From Acidobacteriota bacterium (GTDB lineage Bacteria; Acidobacteriota; JAAYUB01), in the NCBI GenBank assembly GCA_016935015.1, contig JAFGRT010000042.1:1-42137 (forward strand): 42,137 nucleotides of DNA, given 5' to 3'. Both the position numbers and the translations under genes were made by a program. The stretch's first letter is position 1. Each line of letters starts with the position of its first letter. A model generated the notes under the pieces. It did not search any database and was not told the DNA's origin. It saw only the letters and a list, made by a program, of their open reading frames with translations. Below are positions 1 to 26,382 of the stretch, piece by piece.

Positions 1-894
1 CGTGCCCTGTACCACCTTGGCCCACGGGTTCTTGGGCGTCAGGATGCCGCGCACGTTGGTGGCCGGGCCGGTGCCGGTGTTGGCCAGTGCGATCTCCACC
101 GTGGCCTGGTCGCCGGCGTCGAGGATGGTGGCCCGCACGGGCAGCGGGGCCTCGGGCACGATGCCGTCAGGGCAGGCGGAGCTGATCACTTCGGCGTCGC
201 CGGCCAGCTCCAGCTCGGCCGTGTTGGCGTGGCCCATCACGTTGTCCAGAAGGACCTGGGCACCATCCGCGCCGACATAGCGAAAGGCGAAACGGGCGTT
301 GGTGGCGCCCGCCCAGGGGCTGAGATCGACTTCCGTGTAGATCCAGCGATCATAACTGAAAGCGGGGCCGATGTAGTCGTCATCGGACCAGACCAGTTCC
401 CAGTCGGCCAGATCATTGACGCGGACGTAGACCTCGAAGTCGAATGTATCCAAATCGATAGCCCAGTAATAACTGCTCATCCAAAAAAAGCTGACGGAAA
501 GGTTGGGAAAATTGGCCAGATTGATCTTTTGAGAGATCAGCCACTCATCCTGGGGTTCTAACATGTCATCCTTCAGGATGGATGCGCTGAATCGACCGTC
601 GATGGCCCAGCCCTCACCGTATGGCAGCCAGTCCCAGGCGTACCAGGTATACTCCGGTGAATTCTCGTTTTCGATCCAGCGCCCCCAGTTGTGGGGGGGG
701 ACGCCATCTTCGAAGCGTTCCATGAGGACGGCATTGTCATCATAGGGATAGCCCACCGGCGGCGGCGGCGCCATCAGACCGGCGGCCTTCAGGCTTTTGG
801 GGTGCTCATTGTTGACGACTCCCCGCGTGGCGGCCAGGGAAAAGCCCGCCAGCAGCACACTCATCAGGCAAAAAATAAAGAGTGTCTTACGCAT
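1..894 (-). CDS. Secreted choice-of-anchor-J (cleaved-adhesin-like) protein, C-terminus cut by window edge
   Basis: The reading frame is open from an ATG at 894 to base 1, giving 298 residues with no stop, so the gene continues beyond the left edge. An AAGGAG site lies just upstream of the ATG. Residues 1-22 form a signal peptide (basic MRK, hydrophobic core, Ala-rich cleavage region). Residues of roughly 50-220 form a jelly-roll-like domain typical of choice-of-anchor J/cleaved adhesin proteins: an early 'RFEDG..P..W', a 'DEWLISQ' strand, an 'LSVSFFW' strand, 'VDLSPWAG' and a closing 'LLDNV'. The visible end looks like the start of a CARDB/Ig-like beta domain ('VEIALANTGTGPATNV'). Such proteins are surface or secreted adhesins, or accessory parts of secreted hydrolases. 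The missing C-terminus may hold a sorting signal or a catalytic domain, so the exact role is unknown. Confidence 0.8.
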   Translation of the reverse strand, partial: MRKTLFIFCLMSVLLAGFSLAATRGVVNNEHPKSLKAAGLMAPPPPVGYPYDDNAVLMERFEDGVPPHNWGRWIENENSPEYTWYAWDWLPYGEGWAIDGRFSASILKDDMLEPQDEWLISQKINLANFPNLSVSFFWMSSYYWAIDLDTFDFEVYVRVNDLADWELVWSDDDYIGPAFSYDRWIYTEVDLSPWAGATNARFAFRYVGADGAQVLLDNVMGHANTAELELAGDAEVISSACPDGIVPEAPLPVRATILDAGDQATVEIALANTGTGPATNVRGILTPKNPWAKVVQGT

Positions 895-15729: not shown

Positions 15730-15893
15730 GCTGCCTCCAAAATTTCCGAACCGGCGGCAGGACACAGAACGACTTTTTCTTTTATCGCCGATAGTTACCA
15801 TATTCCGGAGGCATGGGTACCGGCGGCTTGATTTGGCATCGATTATGCCTTCATCCGAGGTGAAGTGTGATTGCTATCTTGCAGGAGGTATTC

Positions 15894-16382
15894 ATGAGAT
15901 ATGGAATAATCTTGGCGCTGATCGTCGCCGTCGGATTCTTGTGGGTTCTCCCGGCCACCACCCCGGAGACCCAGGCAACCACCGCCAAGACCGAAGTCAA
16001 GTCACAGGAAGCCGAGACGGCCACTGACACCACGCCCACCCCTCGCGGACCGCGTTACAAGGACGAGAACCGGAATGACGTCTGCGATCACCGGGAATCC
16101 GGCAATCCGCAAGGCCGGATGTACCAGGGCGGTCGCCAGGGGAAGGCGGCGGGACCGGGACAGGGCCTGAACCGGCCGGCCGGCGCAGGACAACAGTGGC
16201 GGTTTGGACGCGGCCGTTGCTGCGGTTGGGGGCGCGGCCGCGGGATGGGTCGTGTCGGCATGGTCCAGGGGCAGGGAAATGCTGTCCCGGGAAGAGGACA
16301 GGGCATTCAATTGCGCAAACGGGATGGCTCCTGCCTGACCCAGACCGAGAGCAAGGAAGAAAACCCGCCCGAAATCAAGTAA
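15894..16382 (+). CDS. Exported Gly/Arg/Gln-rich low-complexity protein with Asp/Asn/Cys motif
   Basis: A 162-residue protein starting at the ATG at 15894, chosen because AGGAGG lies 6 bases upstream; an in-frame ATG at 15867 lacks such a site. Residues 1-25 are a signal peptide. A Thr/Glu-rich spacer follows, then 'YKDENRNDVCDHRESG' (about 58-73), which resembles the 'DENGDGICD' calcium-loop-like motif found in small exported proteins of anaerobes. Residues about 75-145 are rich in Gly, Arg and Gln, with 'RCCGWGRGRGMGR' holding two adjacent cysteines. The function is unknown. Metal or cofactor binding is only a guess from the Cys and Asp/Asn content. Confidence 0.7.
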   Translation: MRYGIILALIVAVGFLWVLPATTPETQATTAKTEVKSQEAETATDTTPTPRGPRYKDENRNDVCDHRESGNPQGRMYQGGRQGKAAGPGQGLNRPAGAGQQWRFGRGRCCGWGRGRGMGRVGMVQGQGNAVPGRGQGIQLRKRDGSCLTQTESKEENPPEIK

Positions 16383-16413: not shown

Positions 16414-16439
16414 GCAGGCGGCCGGATCCGGCCGCCTGC
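16414..16439 (+). terminator. Perfect 26-base palindrome, probable terminator-like hairpin
   Basis: Two 13-base arms beginning GCAGGCGGCCGGA are exact reverse complements with no mismatch, 32 bases after the stop of the Gly/Arg-rich gene. It would form a very GC-rich hairpin. The following sequence TTGCATC is only weakly T-rich, so an intrinsic terminator is plausible but not textbook. Confidence 0.45.
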
Positions 16440-16529: not shown

Positions 16530-16558
16530 CTGATTTCAGACAGTATCCGGGAGATGGA

Positions 16559-17875
16559 ATGTTCTGGTGCTTAAAACGGCAACGATATGTTTTTCTTTTT
16601 TGGGGGCTGCTCCTGGTCGGCGCGTGCCGGGAAGAGGGGATCCGTTTACGCCGGGCCGAACCTGTGGAGATGACCGCTGTACCCCCTGTCCGGCACCGGA
16701 GTTCACCCGCGCAGGCACTGCTGGCCATGGATTTGGCCGCTCCTTGTCTGGCAGGAACGCAGACTGTTCCCAGTGAGCTGGCAGCGGCATATCGTCTCAT
16801 TCGGCGGGGGGGGCTGCTGCCGGCGGAAAACCGGCTGGAGAAAACCCTCCGGCTGGAGACCACCGGAGAACTGGTCCAGCCGGCCATCAACCTCCTGGGT
16901 GAACTTCTTTTCTACCGGCAACAGTGGGAGCAGTTTCTCGAGTATGCACCGCGTTATGTCGGCATGATTGCGAATGATGTCCCCCTGGCGAAGGCCTACC
17001 GGGCGTATCCTCCGGAGCGCCGGCAATGGGATGAAGCACCCGTCACGGTGCCTTTGCGTGCCGGAGTAACCGGCGCGCCGCAGATCGAGGTCGCTGTCGG
17101 CGGTAAAAGCGAGTGGTTCTGGTTGGATACCGGCACCGGCATCACCGTGCTTTCGCAGCGGACCGCCCGGCAGCTGGGAGTGACGACGGCAGGTGATGAA
17201 ACGGCCGAGGCCGCCACGGCCACCAGCCGGAAAATCGTCGTCCGTCCGGCCGTCATCCCGCGGCTGGAGGTAGGGGGAATCAGTCTCGTCCATCATCGTG
17301 CCGTCATCGTGGCCGACGAGGATCTGACCTTCCGCTTCAAACGGACGCCCGCTGAGGTGCGGATCCGGGGGATCCTCGGCTGGAATTTCATTCGCCAGTT
17401 CGCGGTCGCCATCAACGTGTCGCGACGCGAAGTTATTCTGCGCCGGAGTGAACATACGGAACAGACGGGCGGCAATCTTTTCTGGCTGGGGTATCCTGTT
17501 GTCCAGGTGAGGTCGCCGGCAGGGGAGGTATTGTATTTCGGGCTCGATACCGGGGCAGAGAGCACGGTATTGTCGAGTGACTTTGCCGAACGGCATGAGG
17601 GCTTATCCACTGGTCGGCGTCAAAGGTGGCGTCTCACTTCGGCCGGTGGAGAGCAAGTGGTGGAGTCGGCCGTCCTGGAGGACGTTTCTCTGCGAATGGA
17701 GTCGTGGGAGATCACCTTCTCCCACATTCGCACCCGGGAGATCCGCAGTACGGAGTATATCGCTCTTGATGGCATCCTTGGCGCTGATCTGCTGCGCCTG
17801 GGAACCGTCCTCATCGATGGGCCGGGCGGTTCCCTGACTCTCCGCCCGGTACGCCCTGTTGCCGATGGGCGATAG
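16559..17875 (+). CDS. Lipoprotein with two retropepsin-like aspartic protease domains
   Basis: A 438-residue protein with a lipobox-type signal (hydrophobic stretch ending 'LLLVGAC', Cys23), so probably membrane-anchored by a lipid and exposed to the periplasm. Residues about 70-150 are helical. Two aspartic-protease domains follow: the first has 'FWLDTGTGITVLS' (catalytic D190) and the flap-supporting 'GILGWNFI' (271-278). The second has 'FGLDTGAESTVLS' (D330) and 'GILGADLL' (about 415-422). Both DTG triads and both hydrophobic-Gly motifs are intact. Retropepsin-like enzymes are normally active as dimers of single-DTG domains, so the two domains in one chain could form a pepsin-like pseudodimer. 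Bacterial homologues are mostly uncharacterised. GGGAG precedes the ATG. Confidence 0.85.
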   Translation: MFWCLKRQRYVFLFWGLLLVGACREEGIRLRRAEPVEMTAVPPVRHRSSPAQALLAMDLAAPCLAGTQTVPSELAAAYRLIRRGGLLPAENRLEKTLRLETTGELVQPAINLLGELLFYRQQWEQFLEYAPRYVGMIANDVPLAKAYRAYPPERRQWDEAPVTVPLRAGVTGAPQIEVAVGGKSEWFWLDTGTGITVLSQRTARQLGVTTAGDETAEAATATSRKIVVRPAVIPRLEVGGISLVHHRAVIVADEDLTFRFKRTPAEVRIRGILGWNFIRQFAVAINVSRREVILRRSEHTEQTGGNLFWLGYPVVQVRSPAGEVLYFGLDTGAESTVLSSDFAERHEGLSTGRRQRWRLTSAGGEQVVESAVLEDVSLRMESWEITFSHIRTREIRSTEYIALDGILGADLLRLGTVLIDGPGGSLTLRPVRPVADGR

Positions 17876-21392: not shown

Positions 21393-21473
21393 TGCTGATG
21401 GATGAACGAGCGGACGCCAGCGACGTATGATATTTACATGCTGGGCGTTATTTTAACAGAAAAGGAGAGCGGA

Positions 21474-22409
21474 ATGATCAGCGTGGAAAACCTGTCCAAG
21501 TACTACGGTCACCTCTGCGCGGTGGATCAAATCAACTTCAGTGTTGAACGGGGTGAAATCGTCGGCTTGCTGGGTCCCAACGGCGCGGGCAAGACGACGA
21601 CGTTACGCATGCTGACCGGCTACATGAAACCGACTTCAGGCGATATCCACATCATGAATCTGGATATTCATCAAGACGCCCTCCAGATCAAGAAATTGAT
21701 GGGATACCTGCCGGAATCGGCTCCGCTGTATCGGGAGATGCTGGTCTTGGATTATCTGGATTACGTAGCCAGTATTCGGGAAATTTCGCCGGATGAAAAA
21801 CTGGCGCGGATCCGTCATCTGGCCAATGTGTGCGGCCTGAATGAGGTAATGCACCGGCCTATCGGTGAGTTGTCCAAGGGATACAAACAGCGGGTCGGTC
21901 TCGCTCATGCCATGATGAATGATCCGGAAATCCTGGTGTTGGATGAACCCACCTCGGGGCTGGATCCCAACCAGATCGTGGAAATCCGCGGTATTATCAA
22001 GCAGATCGGAAAAGAAAAGACCATCATTCTTTCCACCCATATCCTGAGTGAGGTGGAAGCGACTTGTGACCGAGTAATCATTATCAATCGGGGCAAAATT
22101 GTCGCCGATGAGAATACGGCCTCGCTGCAACACTCCACCCAGAAAGGGTACACGGTCCGGCTCAGTCTGAAGGGTGCGGAGTTTGAAGCTGTACAGGCGG
22201 ATTTAACCACGTTGCCCGACGTGGCCCAAGTGGCACCGGCCGGTCAGGAAGAAGGACGGCTGAGTGTGGATATCCTCTGCAATACAGCGGATGATATCCG
22301 GGGACAGATTTATGCCCGCGTCAAGCGGCAAGACTGGATTTTACTTGAATTCTACCAGCAAACAAGGACCCTGGAGAGCATCTTCCGTGAACTCACCAAG
22401 GAGAATTAA
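21474..22409 (+). CDS. ABC transporter ATP-binding protein (GldA/CcmA type)
   Basis: A 311-residue ATPase subunit. The ATG at 21474 is chosen because AAAGGAGAG lies just before it and homologues begin at 'MISVENLSKYYG'; an in-frame ATG at 21402 is not supported. Walker A 'GPNGAGKTTT' (about 37-46), Q-loop region, signature 'LSKGYKQRVGLAHAM', Walker B 'ILVLDEPTSGLDP' and H-loop 'STHILSEV' are all intact. A C-terminal domain of about 90 residues follows, as in ABC-2 exporters. It should power the permease encoded 2 bases downstream. The combination with GldG- and DUF4340-like genes matches the GldAFG type of ABC system found outside gliding bacteria too. Confidence 0.94.
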   Translation: MISVENLSKYYGHLCAVDQINFSVERGEIVGLLGPNGAGKTTTLRMLTGYMKPTSGDIHIMNLDIHQDALQIKKLMGYLPESAPLYREMLVLDYLDYVASIREISPDEKLARIRHLANVCGLNEVMHRPIGELSKGYKQRVGLAHAMMNDPEILVLDEPTSGLDPNQIVEIRGIIKQIGKEKTIILSTHILSEVEATCDRVIIINRGKIVADENTASLQHSTQKGYTVRLSLKGAEFEAVQADLTTLPDVAQVAPAGQEEGRLSVDILCNTADDIRGQIYARVKRQDWILLEFYQQTRTLESIFRELTKEN

Positions 22410-22411
22410 CC

Positions 22412-23149
22412 ATGAGCCAGGCTGTTCAAATCTTCAAGAAGGAAATGAAAGTCTATTTCGTTTCCCCCGTCGCGTATATCGTGATCTCGGTGTTTCTGCT
22501 CCTCACCGGAACCATGTTCTTTGTCACAGGATTTTTCTCAAACTTGCTGGTGGTTCCGCCCTTCTTCATACGCGAGCAGGCAACGGTTCGGGACTTCTTC
22601 AGCTTGCTGCCGCTGATCTTCCCGCTGGTTATCCCGGCCATCACCATGCGCCTGTTCGCCGAGGAGGTGAATGTCGGTTCCTATGAAATTCTGCTGACCA
22701 TGCCGGTCACCATCCGGGATGTGGTTCTGGGCAAGTTTTTCGCTGCCGTCAGTTTCGTGGCCATCATGTTGCTGCCCACCATCGCCTATCCCATCAGCGT
22801 CTCGTTTCTGGGGAATCTGGATTGGGGCCCGGTGGTCGGCGGCTATATCGGGGCTATACTTTTGGCCGCCGCCTTTTCAGCCATCGGCATCTTTGCCTCT
22901 GCCCTCACGCGGGTCCAGATCATTGCGTTTATCATCAGCATGGTGATCTGCTTCTTTCTGGCCTTTATCGACAAGTTGCTCATCTTCATGCCCCAGGCGC
23001 TGGTCGGCTTCTTGCAGCAGATCGCGTCTGGATATCACTTTCTGAATATCGCCAAAGGCGTGATCGACTCCCGCGACCTGATCTATTTCCTCAGCGTGTG
23101 CGTCATTGGGCTGTATGCGGCGCAACTGGTCATGGAGGAAAAGCAATGA
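22412..23149 (+). CDS. ABC-2 type permease (GldF-like)
   Basis: A 245-residue membrane protein with six hydrophobic segments (about 20-42, 58-80, 100-125, 138-160, 167-190 and 218-240). 'FKKEMKVYFVSPVAYIV' near the N-terminus and 'PAITMRLFAEEVNVGSYEILLTMPVT' in the first cytoplasmic loop are typical of this ABC-2 subfamily, where the loop contacts the ATPase. It starts two bases after the ATPase stop, and its stop overlaps the next start codon (ATGA at 23146-23149), indicating translational coupling. The transported substrate is unknown. Confidence 0.92.
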   Translation: MSQAVQIFKKEMKVYFVSPVAYIVISVFLLLTGTMFFVTGFFSNLLVVPPFFIREQATVRDFFSLLPLIFPLVIPAITMRLFAEEVNVGSYEILLTMPVTIRDVVLGKFFAAVSFVAIMLLPTIAYPISVSFLGNLDWGPVVGGYIGAILLAAAFSAIGIFASALTRVQIIAFIISMVICFFLAFIDKLLIFMPQALVGFLQQIASGYHFLNIAKGVIDSRDLIYFLSVCVIGLYAAQLVMEEKQ

Positions 23150-25392
23150 GGAGAAACAGCATGTCGGCAACAGATACGAAAACCAGATACGGCAAATTTT
23201 TATTGTACATCATCATCATCGTATTGATCAATCTGGCCGGGGTGACGCTGTTCACGAGGATTGATCTCACCCGGAACCAGATATATTCCATCTCCGACTT
23301 GACCAAGGAGGTGGTCTCCAACCTGTCCGAGCCGCTGACGATCGAGGTCTTCTTCACCAAGGATCTGGGCGCCCCCTACAACACGGTTGAGCTTTCCCTG
23401 CGGGATTTGTTGCAGGAATACGCTGTCTATGGCAACCGCAATTTCAATTACCGGTTCTATGACGTCAGTCCCGATGAGGGCGATATCACTGAAGATGCCC
23501 GGCGGAACCGGGAACTGGCCCAGAGTTACGGTATTTTTCCGGTTCAGCTGCAGATCATCGAAGCGGACCAGGTCAAGGTCCAGAAGGCCTACATGGGAAT
23601 GGTGATGATCCATGGCGACCTCATGGAAAAGATTCCTTTCATTGAAAGTACGGAAGGGCTGGAGTACACGCTCACCACCATGATCCAGAAGATGCACAAC
23701 AAGACGGGCGTTCTGATGAAACTGGAGACCAATATCCGGGTCAAACTTTTTCTCTCGTCTTCACTGGAAATGGTGGCGCCGTACGTCCGGCTGAGCGGCC
23801 TTTCGGACATTCCCAAGCAGATCGAACAGGTTGTCAACGAACTGAACGAGAAGAACTTCGGCAAGCTGGAGTTCCAACTCCTGAACCCCAGTTTGCAACC
23901 CGAAGCGCGGCAGGAGGCGGAGCAGTACAATCTTCTGAATCTGCAGTGGCCCGCCCTGCAGGACATCTCGGGTGACCAGATTCCCGCCGGTCAGGGCGTC
24001 ATCGGCATGGTCATGGAATACGGCGATAAGATAATGGATATTCCCGTACTTCGGGTCCTGCGCCTGCCCATTTTCGGCACGCGTTATGAACTGGTAGACA
24101 TGGAAACCATCAAGGAGAGCATCAACGAGAACGTGGAGAATCTCATCGACATCAATGAGGATATTGGGTATCTGGCGGACCATGGCACATTGGATTTGCA
24201 GTCCTTTCAGCCCATGCCGAATGAGGGACAAAACCCGGAAGCCGTCTCCGAATTCAATAAGCTGGTGTCGGGAACCTATAGCCTCAAGGAAGTGCGGCTG
24301 GCCGACGGAGAAATTCCGCCGGGGATCCGCTGTCTGATCATCGCCCGGGCGAAAGAGGAATTCACCGATTACGAGCTTTTCCAGATCGATCAGTTCCTGA
24401 TGAAAGGGAATTCCCTGGCCGTTTTTGTCGATGCCTTCAATGAAATTCGTCCCCCCCAGCAACAGATGCAGTTCAACCAGCAGGGTCCGTTCTTCGTGCC
24501 GCTCAATACCGGTCTGGAAAAACTGCTGGATCATTACGGGATTAACGCCAAGAAGGCCTACGTTCTGGACAAGAGCTGCTTCACCCAACGCTTCCGCAGT
24601 CAGACGGGGATCGAGGAGATGCCCATCTATTTTGCGCCGCGAATCAAGGCCGGGAATATCAACCAAGAGCTCGATTTTCTGAAGAACATCAACGACTTGC
24701 TGGCCCTGCAGTTCTCGCCGCTGGAGCTCAGGCAAGAGCGTCTCCAGGCCCAGGGGGTGGAAGCGCTGCGATTGTTCTCCTCGTCGGAGGAATCGTGGGA
24801 AATGAGCGGGCGGATCAATCTGAACCCCATGTTTATCCAGCCGCCGACCCAGGAAGATGCATATTCAGGCAGCCTGCCCCTGGCCTATCTGCTGCAAGGC
24901 GAATTCAGCAGTTACTTTACCGGCAAGGAGCTGCCGGTACGACCGGCGGATCAGGAAAATGTGAATGAAACCGGCGCTGAAGCCCAGGCGGATCAGGAAA
25001 AAAGTGGTCCCGATCTTTCCAGCATTGAAGAAACGGGCGTCTTCCTGTCCCAGGGCTCCCCGGGGAAGATCTTTCTTGTCGGGACGTCCACCCTGTTGCG
25101 CAATGATGTGATCAACTGGCAGGTGGAAGGGGAAAATCGCGAGCGGATTTTTCCCAACCAGGTTTTCCTGATGAATGTGCTGGATATTCTAAACGGCCGG
25201 GAAGAACTGGCCATCATGCGGGCCAAGAAACAGAGTTTCAATCCGCTGGACGAGACGGAAGTGGGAACGAGAAATTTCATCAAGACGCTGAACGTCGGTG
25301 GACTGGCCTTGCTGGTGTTGCTGGCGGGAGTCTGGGTCTGGTTCCGGCGCAACGCCCGCAAGAAGAGAATCCAGCTCATGTTTCAGAAATGA
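23146..25392 (+). CDS. GldG-family ABC-system auxiliary membrane protein
   Basis: A 748-residue protein starting at the ATG at 23146, which overlaps the permease stop and follows GGAGG; an ATG at 23161 with its own GAGGAG is an alternative. A transmembrane helix lies at about 18-36 and a second at about 715-732, followed by a basic tail. Between them is a large periplasmic region with the GldG-type start 'LTRNQIYSISDLTKEVV..LSEPLTIEVFFTKDL' (about 41-74), the 'EY' and Asp-rich segments of the ABC_transp_aux domain, and 'VFVDAF' in the Rossmann-like fold. The family works with ABC-2 exporters in gliding systems and in many non-gliding bacteria, where its role is not defined. The longer open frame upstream (from 22822) overlaps the permease and is not real. 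Confidence 0.9.
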   Translation: MRRNSMSATDTKTRYGKFLLYIIIIVLINLAGVTLFTRIDLTRNQIYSISDLTKEVVSNLSEPLTIEVFFTKDLGAPYNTVELSLRDLLQEYAVYGNRNFNYRFYDVSPDEGDITEDARRNRELAQSYGIFPVQLQIIEADQVKVQKAYMGMVMIHGDLMEKIPFIESTEGLEYTLTTMIQKMHNKTGVLMKLETNIRVKLFLSSSLEMVAPYVRLSGLSDIPKQIEQVVNELNEKNFGKLEFQLLNPSLQPEARQEAEQYNLLNLQWPALQDISGDQIPAGQGVIGMVMEYGDKIMDIPVLRVLRLPIFGTRYELVDMETIKESINENVENLIDINEDIGYLADHGTLDLQSFQPMPNEGQNPEAVSEFNKLVSGTYSLKEVRLADGEIPPGIRCLIIARAKEEFTDYELFQIDQFLMKGNSLAVFVDAFNEIRPPQQQMQFNQQGPFFVPLNTGLEKLLDHYGINAKKAYVLDKSCFTQRFRSQTGIEEMPIYFAPRIKAGNINQELDFLKNINDLLALQFSPLELRQERLQAQGVEALRLFSSSEESWEMSGRINLNPMFIQPPTQEDAYSGSLPLAYLLQGEFSSYFTGKELPVRPADQENVNETGAEAQADQEKSGPDLSSIEETGVFLSQGSPGKIFLVGTSTLLRNDVINWQVEGENRERIFPNQVFLMNVLDILNGREELAIMRAKKQSFNPLDETEVGTRNFIKTLNVGGLALLVLLAGVWVWFRRNARKKRIQLMFQK

Positions 25393-25404
25393 GGAGGAAA
25401 TCTG

Positions 25405-26382
25405 ATGAGCCTAAAAAAAGAATTCATCATCCTCGGCGTCATCGCGGTGGGGTTGCTGGTCTATCTTTTGCTGCGACAGAGCGATCGTACCCAGTATGAG
25501 CTGCCGACGGTTCCCAAAATAGAGCGGGAGAACGTGACACGCATCGAGATCAGCCAGCAGGCGCGCCAGATCGAGCTCAGCAAGGATAATGGCCAATGGC
25601 GGTTACTGCCCAGCGGCTACCCGGTGGATGAAACCAAGATAACCAGCGTGCTGGAAACCCTGGAAAAGTTCTCCCTCACGGCCTTGGCCTCCGATTCCGG
25701 AAATTATGACACCTATGATCTGGGCAAGGACAAACGGATTGATGTGACCGTATACCAGGGGGAAAAAGCAGTGTTGGTTTTTGCTATCGGCAAGGCGGCA
25801 CCTTCCTTTCGGCACACGTTTGTTACCGTATCGGCTGATGACCGCGTTTTCCATGCCCAGGATAATTTTCGCGCCCGGTTCGACCCCGACGCGGAATCCT
25901 GGCGGGACAAGACGGTCATGCGCTTCGAACAGGGTACCATCTACCAGATCGCCCTGTCGGGGCCGGATTTCGAGCTCAGCGCCCGCAAAACCCAGACCCC
26001 GGTGAACGTCGGCGGTGAACCTACGGAAAGTACCACCACCGAGCCTCCGGTTGCCGAGACGGTCATGCGGTGGGAAACCTCTGCCGGCCAGTTGCTGGAT
26101 GATGCTCAGGTAGACAGCTGGCTGACCGCCCTGTCCACCCTGAAGTGCGACAGTTTTGTCGAGGGCAAAAGCAAGGATGATTTCACCACGCCCATCTATA
26201 CGGTGCAGCTTGTCGGCAACAGTGAGCAGCGCCTCACCCTCTTCGAACCGATTGGTGAAGAGGGAAAATATCCGGCCGTATCAGCGGCCAGTGATTATCC
26301 GTTCTTTCTGCCCAAATGGCGGGCGGAGCAAATCATGAAGAAACCGGCTGATCTCATCAAGACGGAAAACGCCACCGAGTGA
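25405..26382 (+). CDS. DUF4340 domain membrane-anchored protein
   Basis: A 325-residue protein with one N-terminal transmembrane helix (about 6-24) and a periplasmic DUF4340 region. Repeated signatures 'VTRIEISQQARQIELSKDNGQWRL' (in two pieces) and 'VDSWLTALSTLKCDSFVEG' show the duplicated DUF4340 unit. A low-complexity Thr/Pro/Glu linker at about 195-215 splits the two halves. The domain commonly occurs directly downstream of GldG-type genes, so it is probably a periplasmic partner of the same ABC system. The start follows GAGGAGG and is 12 bases after the GldG-like stop. It is the last gene before the terminator. Confidence 0.9.
   Translation: MSLKKEFIILGVIAVGLLVYLLLRQSDRTQYELPTVPKIERENVTRIEISQQARQIELSKDNGQWRLLPSGYPVDETKITSVLETLEKFSLTALASDSGNYDTYDLGKDKRIDVTVYQGEKAVLVFAIGKAAPSFRHTFVTVSADDRVFHAQDNFRARFDPDAESWRDKTVMRFEQGTIYQIALSGPDFELSARKTQTPVNVGGEPTESTTTEPPVAETVMRWETSAGQLLDDAQVDSWLTALSTLKCDSFVEGKSKDDFTTPIYTVQLVGNSEQRLTLFEPIGEEGKYPAVSAASDYPFFLPKWRAEQIMKKPADLIKTENATE

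Follow-up and report, generated by a model that had tools for sequence, protein, structure and literature searches.

A putative lipid-anchored aspartic endopeptidase with two retropepsin-like lobes in a single chain from an Acidobacteriota bacterium

Pepsin is thought to stem from the duplication and fusion of a dimeric half-enzyme. The present study concerns a bacterial protein of 438 amino acids (aa) with two retropepsin-like lobes, encoded on contig JAFGRT010000042.1 of an Acidobacteriota bacterium (assembly GCA_016935015.1). The whole stretch of DNA that was analyzed, 42,137 nucleotides in length, is called the window, and all coordinates are positions in it.

A survey of clan AA from 2009 reported its prokaryotic members as single-domain proteins, together with pepsins in several genomes (PMC2642776). 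The shewasins, which are bacterial pepsins of family A1, resemble the window protein in being bilobed single chains with one Asp per lobe (PMC2761423, PMC4814920). However, they belong to the pepsin sequence family and are predicted to be intracellular (PMC2761423), whereas the window protein has lobes that are retropepsin-like by sequence and a signal-like N-terminus. Among solved structures, the closest by far, as judged from profiles and predicted models, is PDB entry 9iy9, a putative endopeptidase ("Exported protein") of Bacteroides fragilis released on 2025-08-06. In both proteins, a single chain comprises an N-terminal part and two DTG-bearing lobes; however, 9iy9 is approximately 17% identical to the window protein and comes from another phylum. 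A literature search by entry code found no paper on 9iy9. Since the structure has been deposited, the two-lobed kind is already known. The window protein is a member of PF13650 and of this two-lobed kind, which is known but little studied, and it is best regarded as a good example of that kind, not as a new one.

We propose that the window protein is a lipid-anchored aspartic endopeptidase, in which two retropepsin-like lobes in one chain form a single catalytic dyad. The activity is predicted, and we assign this proposal a probability of approximately 0.78.

Two related lobes in one chain

The gene occupies positions 16559..17875 of the forward strand, and all of the protein features described below are on this strand. 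It is an open reading frame (ORF) that starts at ATG and matches PF13650 twice, with a GGAG at 16550-16553, 5 bases upstream of the start codon. Lobe 1 (aa 160-300, 17036..17458), supported by a PF13650 match at aa 176-277 and by the strands of the predicted model, carries the first DTG (D190, 17126..17134), which is followed by Thr, and a hydrophobic-hydrophobic-Gly motif, GILG, at aa 271-274 (17369..17380). Lobe 2 (aa 303-431, 17465..17851), supported in the same manner by a PF13650 match at 17522-17788, carries the second DTG (D330, 17546..17554), which is followed by Ala (A333), and a second GILG at aa 405-408 (17771..17782). Both GILG motifs were located in the sequence and in alignment A1, which is described below. 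The initial annotation had claimed two DTG motifs, each with a later GILG, in one chain, and this claim was borne out by the ORF, the motifs and the two domain matches.

PF13650 (Asp_protease_2, clan AA) has a curated cut-off of 24.3 bits, which was exceeded by lobe 1 (48.9 bits) and lobe 2 (31.0 bits); the whole protein matched in two stretches at an expectation value (E) of 3.4e-20 and 73 bits. Since both lobes exceed the cut-off, the tandem motifs are not due to chance. PF13975 was also over its cut-off. PF00077 (RVP) scored 18.5 bits, below its cut-off of 20.7, and NCBIfam TIGR02281 (clan_AA_DTGA) scored 36.5 bits, under its curated cut-off of 57.95 bits, which places the protein outside that family.

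The two lobes were compared as profiles built from 15 of the 20 proteins of alignment A3 (see below), with near-copies omitted. hhalign gave a probability of 98.8, an E of 1.4e-16 and 23% identity over 121 columns. The comparison of the two lobes proposed in the initial annotation thus indicates, at the level of profiles, that they are homologous and that the protein arose by an internal duplication of which the trace is still clear.

Relatives were found by a whole-genome search of 60 genomes with the whole window protein, and matches were obtained in 21 of them, including the genome of the window. Of the 28 relative ORFs, which came from 20 other genomes, 26 contained two D[TS]G motifs with a spacing of 134-149 residues. 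The loss of one DTG in homologues, which had been named beforehand as grounds for rejecting the annotation, was therefore not the pattern observed. Alignment A1 comprised the window protein and 20 of the 28 relatives (L011, L017, L022, L023, L028, L032, L033 and L034 were omitted). Across its 21 tandem proteins, which are 17-30% identical to the window protein, D190, G192, D330, G332 and G408 were invariant, although this invariance overstates conservation because the degenerate relatives L017 and L028 were among those omitted.

When named genome contigs were scanned with the single window protein, no relative was found. The same contigs scanned with the pattern of alignment A2, which itself includes the LDTG of lobe 2, yielded 20 loci. 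They belonged to Acidobacteriota (some of the genes had already been found), Candidatus Fischerbacteria, Saprospiraceae, Okeania, another Microcoleaceae cyanobacterium and a poribacterium. The usual motif spacing was found in 19 of them; the remaining locus, L054, had a wider spacing and matched over just 31 residues. Alignment A3 consists of the window protein and the 19 loci other than L054. D190, G192, D330 and G332 were invariant in A3, in the case of the lobe 2 pair partly by the way in which the rows were found.

Predicted fold and activity

We modeled the window protein as a single chain with AlphaFold2, using a 20-sequence alignment of the window protein and 19 related loci. The model had a bilobed body, a mean predicted local distance difference test score (pLDDT) of 81.6 and a predicted template modeling score (pTM) of 0.80, with ten-residue pLDDT means of 71-97 over residues 71-430. 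A model of the Saprospiraceae relative L038, based on 15 alignment rows, had a pLDDT of 82.4 and a pTM of 0.82.

Sequence and structure searches both led to 9iy9. The window protein alone found it with phmmer at an E of 2.2e-8, and the A3 profile at an E of 2.7e-20; the profile alignment placed the DTG motifs of both lobes on those of 9iy9. The next matches of the A3 profile were tethered proteases of human immunodeficiency virus (HIV), retropepsins, DDI1-like proteins and a Rickettsia protease; the best 60 of its 235 solved-structure matches also included UBA-domain proteins and no pepsin. In a Foldseek search of solved structures with the window model, 9iy9 ranked first (E 3.0e-21, template modeling (TM) score to the query 0.65, root-mean-square deviation (rmsd) 4.5), and rows 2-50 (E 1.5e-10 to 6.1e-9) were tethered single-chain HIV proteases and eukaryotic pepsin-type enzymes. 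The tethered HIV protease dimers had TM-scores to the target of 0.68-0.74 among the matches listed. VIA-align superposed 9iy9 on model residues 62..429 (Z 33.2, rmsd 3.5, 349 aligned residues); its other 49 rows were pepsin-type enzymes (Z 15.9-16.8, rmsd 3.6-4.3, 239-250 aligned residues), for which the model ranges lay within 156..434 and covered nearly the whole chain. For example, endothiapepsin 2er9 (Z 16.8, rmsd 3.9, 244 aligned residues) matched model residues 160..431 with its chain residues -2..326, both lobes together. The L038 model gave a similar result with VIA-align (9iy9 Z 31.1, pepsins Z 15.8-16.7), and Foldseek agreed.

The superposition on 9iy9 over its whole length, with DTG on DTG, places the window protein in the same two-lobed bacterial kind. 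Moreover, since a single superposition spans both lobes of the pepsins, the lobes are predicted to be arranged roughly as in pepsin, and the predicted models have the architecture of a bilobed single chain with one DTG per lobe. The two DTG loops would then face each other. The single-chain pseudodimer resembling pepsin that the initial annotation had suggested is supported by these models.

The bilobed chain and the superposition of pepsins over both lobes may also suggest that the protein is a true pepsin of family A1, perhaps derived from eukaryotes, similar to the bacterial pepsins of Rawlings and Bateman. However, no pepsin family was present among the five Pfam matches of the window protein at an E of up to 1, among the families matched by the A1 alignment (25 of 33 listed) or among all 12 of those matched by A3, and no pepsin appeared among the structure matches of the A3 profile described above. 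Furthermore, lobes of the window type are alike in sequence, whereas the pepsin lobes resemble each other only at the hydrophobic-hydrophobic-Gly and active-site motifs (PMC2761423). Membership in family A1 by sequence was ruled out by the Pfam and profile results, and we regard a pepsin origin of this sort as extremely improbable.

Another explanation is that each lobe is an ordinary retropepsin half that pairs with a lobe of another chain, forming a dimer or a chain of molecules. Single-lobe bacterial retropepsin-like enzymes, such as RloA, dimerize (PMC12239564), and AlphaFold2 was given one chain only. However, when superposed on 9iy9, tethered HIV protease dimers or pepsins, a single modeled chain accounts for both lobes, and the spacing between the motifs is narrow in the 26 tandem relatives and in 19 of the 20 A2 loci. 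Intermolecular pairing is therefore very unlikely in our assessment. By lobe sequence the protein is of the retropepsin (A2) type, since it matches PF13650 and PF13975 and its A3 profile finds retropepsins and DDI1-like proteins; it departs from that type in having two lobes in one chain rather than a single lobe per chain that acts as a dimer.

Several points weigh against the proposal of a two-lobed protease. The motifs of L017 and L028 (2 of the 28 relatives) are degenerate, so that non-enzymatic members probably exist, and the omission of these two from A1 was noted above. The activity of the window protein is predicted. The label "putative endopeptidase" of 9iy9 comes from its deposited title only. 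The models were built on shallow alignments of 20 and 15 rows; they also lack independence, because the rows used for L038 all lie within the 20 of the first model. In Foldseek, the pepsins superpose loosely (TM-score to the query approximately 0.36-0.42, rmsd 6.0-10.9), and the closeness of the two Asp residues is deduced from superposition. When the 8000-30000 region of the window was compared with nine loci (blastp, E up to 1e-8), the gene itself was the only ORF with a match. Shared neighbors were seen solely between other loci, and with no conserved neighbor the gene context suggests no role.

The degenerate relatives, the reliance on prediction and the lack of a conserved neighborhood would be compatible with a protein that has kept the fold without being a protease, namely, a TPR-like lipoprotein with a two-lobed cleft that binds a peptide or partner. 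However, the motifs (26 of 28) and the Gly residues of the psi-loops are kept in very divergent relatives, which binding alone would not demand. We consider a purely binding function unlikely. Regarding the degenerate members themselves, the ORFs at L017:1039-3381 and L028:889-2385 may be non-enzymatic representatives of the family.

If the window protein is a protease, an old internal duplication would have placed two retropepsin-like lobes in a single chain, D190 and D330, one from each lobe, would form a single catalytic dyad where the lobes meet, and the GILG motifs would be parts of two psi-loops. The acid optimum implied by the initial annotation appears to be overstated in view of the Ala after the second DTG, as in retropepsins. 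According to Rawlings and Bateman, an Ala at position 218 (pepsin numbering) is related to neutral-pH activity, and renin and HIV protease are examples (PMC2761423). Since A333 follows the second DTG as Ala does in retropepsins and renin, an optimum near neutral is likelier than an acid one, and activity nearer neutral than acid pH is expected from this motif position alone.

The N-terminus is signal-like. A signal helix and putative lipobox occupy aa 1-23 (16559..16627; model helix 2-26), and by eye the hydrophobic stretch terminates in LVGAC (aa 19-23), of which C23 is the putative lipidated Cys according to the lipobox rule. By eye, five of the six aligned core proteins (the window protein, L035, L036, L037 and L038) have a Cys of this kind where the signal helix ends, and L039 had no Cys of that form. 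The window protein is thus probably lipid-anchored, and the anchor would place the enzyme facing the periplasm or the surface.

A helical TPR-like stretch follows at aa 72-148 (16772..17002), with model helices at 72-82, 86-99, 106-119, 123-128 and 137-148, and is included in the superposition on 9iy9, which begins at model residue 62. No Pfam match to TPR was found in the window protein itself; TPR_16 was matched by 11 of the 21 A1 proteins and 7 of the 20 A3 proteins. This stretch would probably hold a substrate or partner protein, or shield the cleft.

Distribution and history of the duplication

The initial annotation presented the arrangement as unusual for retropepsin-like domains. For bacteria this is overstated, given that the structure of one relative has been solved and that a tandem relative was found in 19 of the 20 other genomes with any match. 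The latter correspond to 19 of the 59 other genomes of the phylum, a fraction that does not give the frequency of tandem forms among all PF13650 proteins, as the relatives were drawn by their likeness to a tandem query. PF13650 itself was found in 65 of 99 genomes of the phylum, including that of the window (E up to 0.001). Searches of the genomes of L038 and L042 showed further frames with two matches. The genome of the window encoded three such proteins: the one described here, a second tandem protein (contig 63) and a single-domain protein (contig 54). The second tandem protein (L003:1276-2214) is shorter (313 aa) and has three D[TS]G motifs; two of them, at 90 and 224, correspond to the two lobes.

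Profile A6 was built from six close core relatives and included the N-terminal part. It matched 20 of 199 genomes of the phylum at an E of up to 1e-20 and six, including that of the window, below 1e-80; some of the matching genomes are sources of the profile itself. In the phylum of L038, it matched 10 of 148 genomes (E up to 1e-10), with two below 1e-80, one of which was the genome of L038. Among the 18 loci examined (26 were returned), 16 had two motifs in one frame; by a simple pattern, L080 had one motif and L071 none. L061, L067 and L073 were already among the 28 relatives, and L055 is probably L035; the eight loci left out were seven genes already known and L070. L072 (genome G178), a tandem relative, contains one in-frame TGA. 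This may reflect a sequencing error or a pseudogene, and the family may thus include at least one broken copy. Across all of the searches, tandem relatives were found in Acidobacteriota, Bacteroidota and Cyanobacteria.

We constructed a quick tree of 65 lobes from 32 tandem proteins and one single-domain protein. The C lobes of the five core proteins (the window protein, L007, L035, L038 and L039) formed one starred clade, and their N lobes fell within an unstarred group of six N lobes with a support of 86. This grouping indicates that the duplication predates the split of these Acidobacteriota and Bacteroidota proteins, and the placement of the core lobes ruled out a recent local duplication. 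Together with the N lobes of L021 and L022, the core C-lobe clade made up a starred group of seven; barring a long-branch effect, this nesting argues against a simple division into N and C lobes. On the tree, each of the two labels, N and C, required seven changes (shuffled means of approximately 22), and starred branches forced at least two. Holding all N lobes as one clade was not rejected (p-AU, the approximately unbiased test, 0.184). The tree contained long branches, and both L003 lobes were on very long ones. The 65-lobe tree neither demonstrated nor rejected the descent of all tandem members from one duplication, and several separate fusions may have occurred within bacteria.

Gene surroundings and comparison with known systems

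Promoter-like patterns near the gene (2, against a shuffle mean of 1.1) and terminator-like patterns (3, against 2.7) were approximately as frequent as in shuffled sequence. A 26-base palindrome, perfect and without a loop (arms of 13 bases each), lies at 16414-16439, between the upstream ORF and the gene, with a run of five T approximately 15 bases past it. This palindrome was absent from the list of the terminator scan; it may serve as a binding site or as the terminator of the upstream ORF. The upstream ORF (15867-16382, forward strand, 171 aa) has a signal-like start and a C-terminal half rich in Gly, Arg and Gln, and had no Pfam match at an E of up to 0.001. Further downstream, at 21402-26382 on the forward strand, genes for an ATP-binding cassette (ABC) ATPase, an ABC-2 permease, ABC_transp_aux/DUF7088 and DUF4340 stand in a row, which we take to resemble gliding-type ABC transporter sets.

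Literature searches found no paper on a natural tandem bacterial retropepsin or its function; since many subscription papers were outside their reach, this is weak evidence of novelty. Other bacterial clan AA enzymes with a DTG have been described. RloA of Pseudomonas is secreted; however, it has one lobe per chain and is a dimer in crystals and in solution (PMC12239564). APRc of Rickettsia likewise differs in having one lobe per chain (PMC4140852). Amuc_1434 of Akkermansia is inhibited by pepstatin A, with kinetics recorded at pH 8.0, and is likened to the window protein by description rather than by sequence; it differs in being described with a single hydrophobic-hydrophobic-Gly motif (PMC6982040).

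As the lobes of the window protein are still alike and still match single-lobe families, the path from a half-enzyme to a fused enzyme may be studied in bacteria. We tentatively suggest that the tandem proteins form a widespread exported bacterial family with retropepsin-like lobes, whose common origin is still readable and which arose separately from family A1 or near its root; this suggestion is more doubtful than probable. If it is correct, the family would provide a second, less worn case of the process long proposed for the origin of pepsin, namely, duplication and fusion, and would parallel in nature the single-chain HIV protease made by engineering. The window protein would exemplify a class of exported putative proteases in bacteria that is open to simple tests.

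Tethered HIV-1 protease dimers (1lv1, 1hvc) also have two retropepsin lobes per chain, but they were engineered from a single viral lobe and have no N-terminal domain. On the basis of the predicted models, the window protein would work in the manner of pepsin or of a tethered retropepsin, while falling outside family A1 by sequence and differing by architecture from a dimeric retropepsin.
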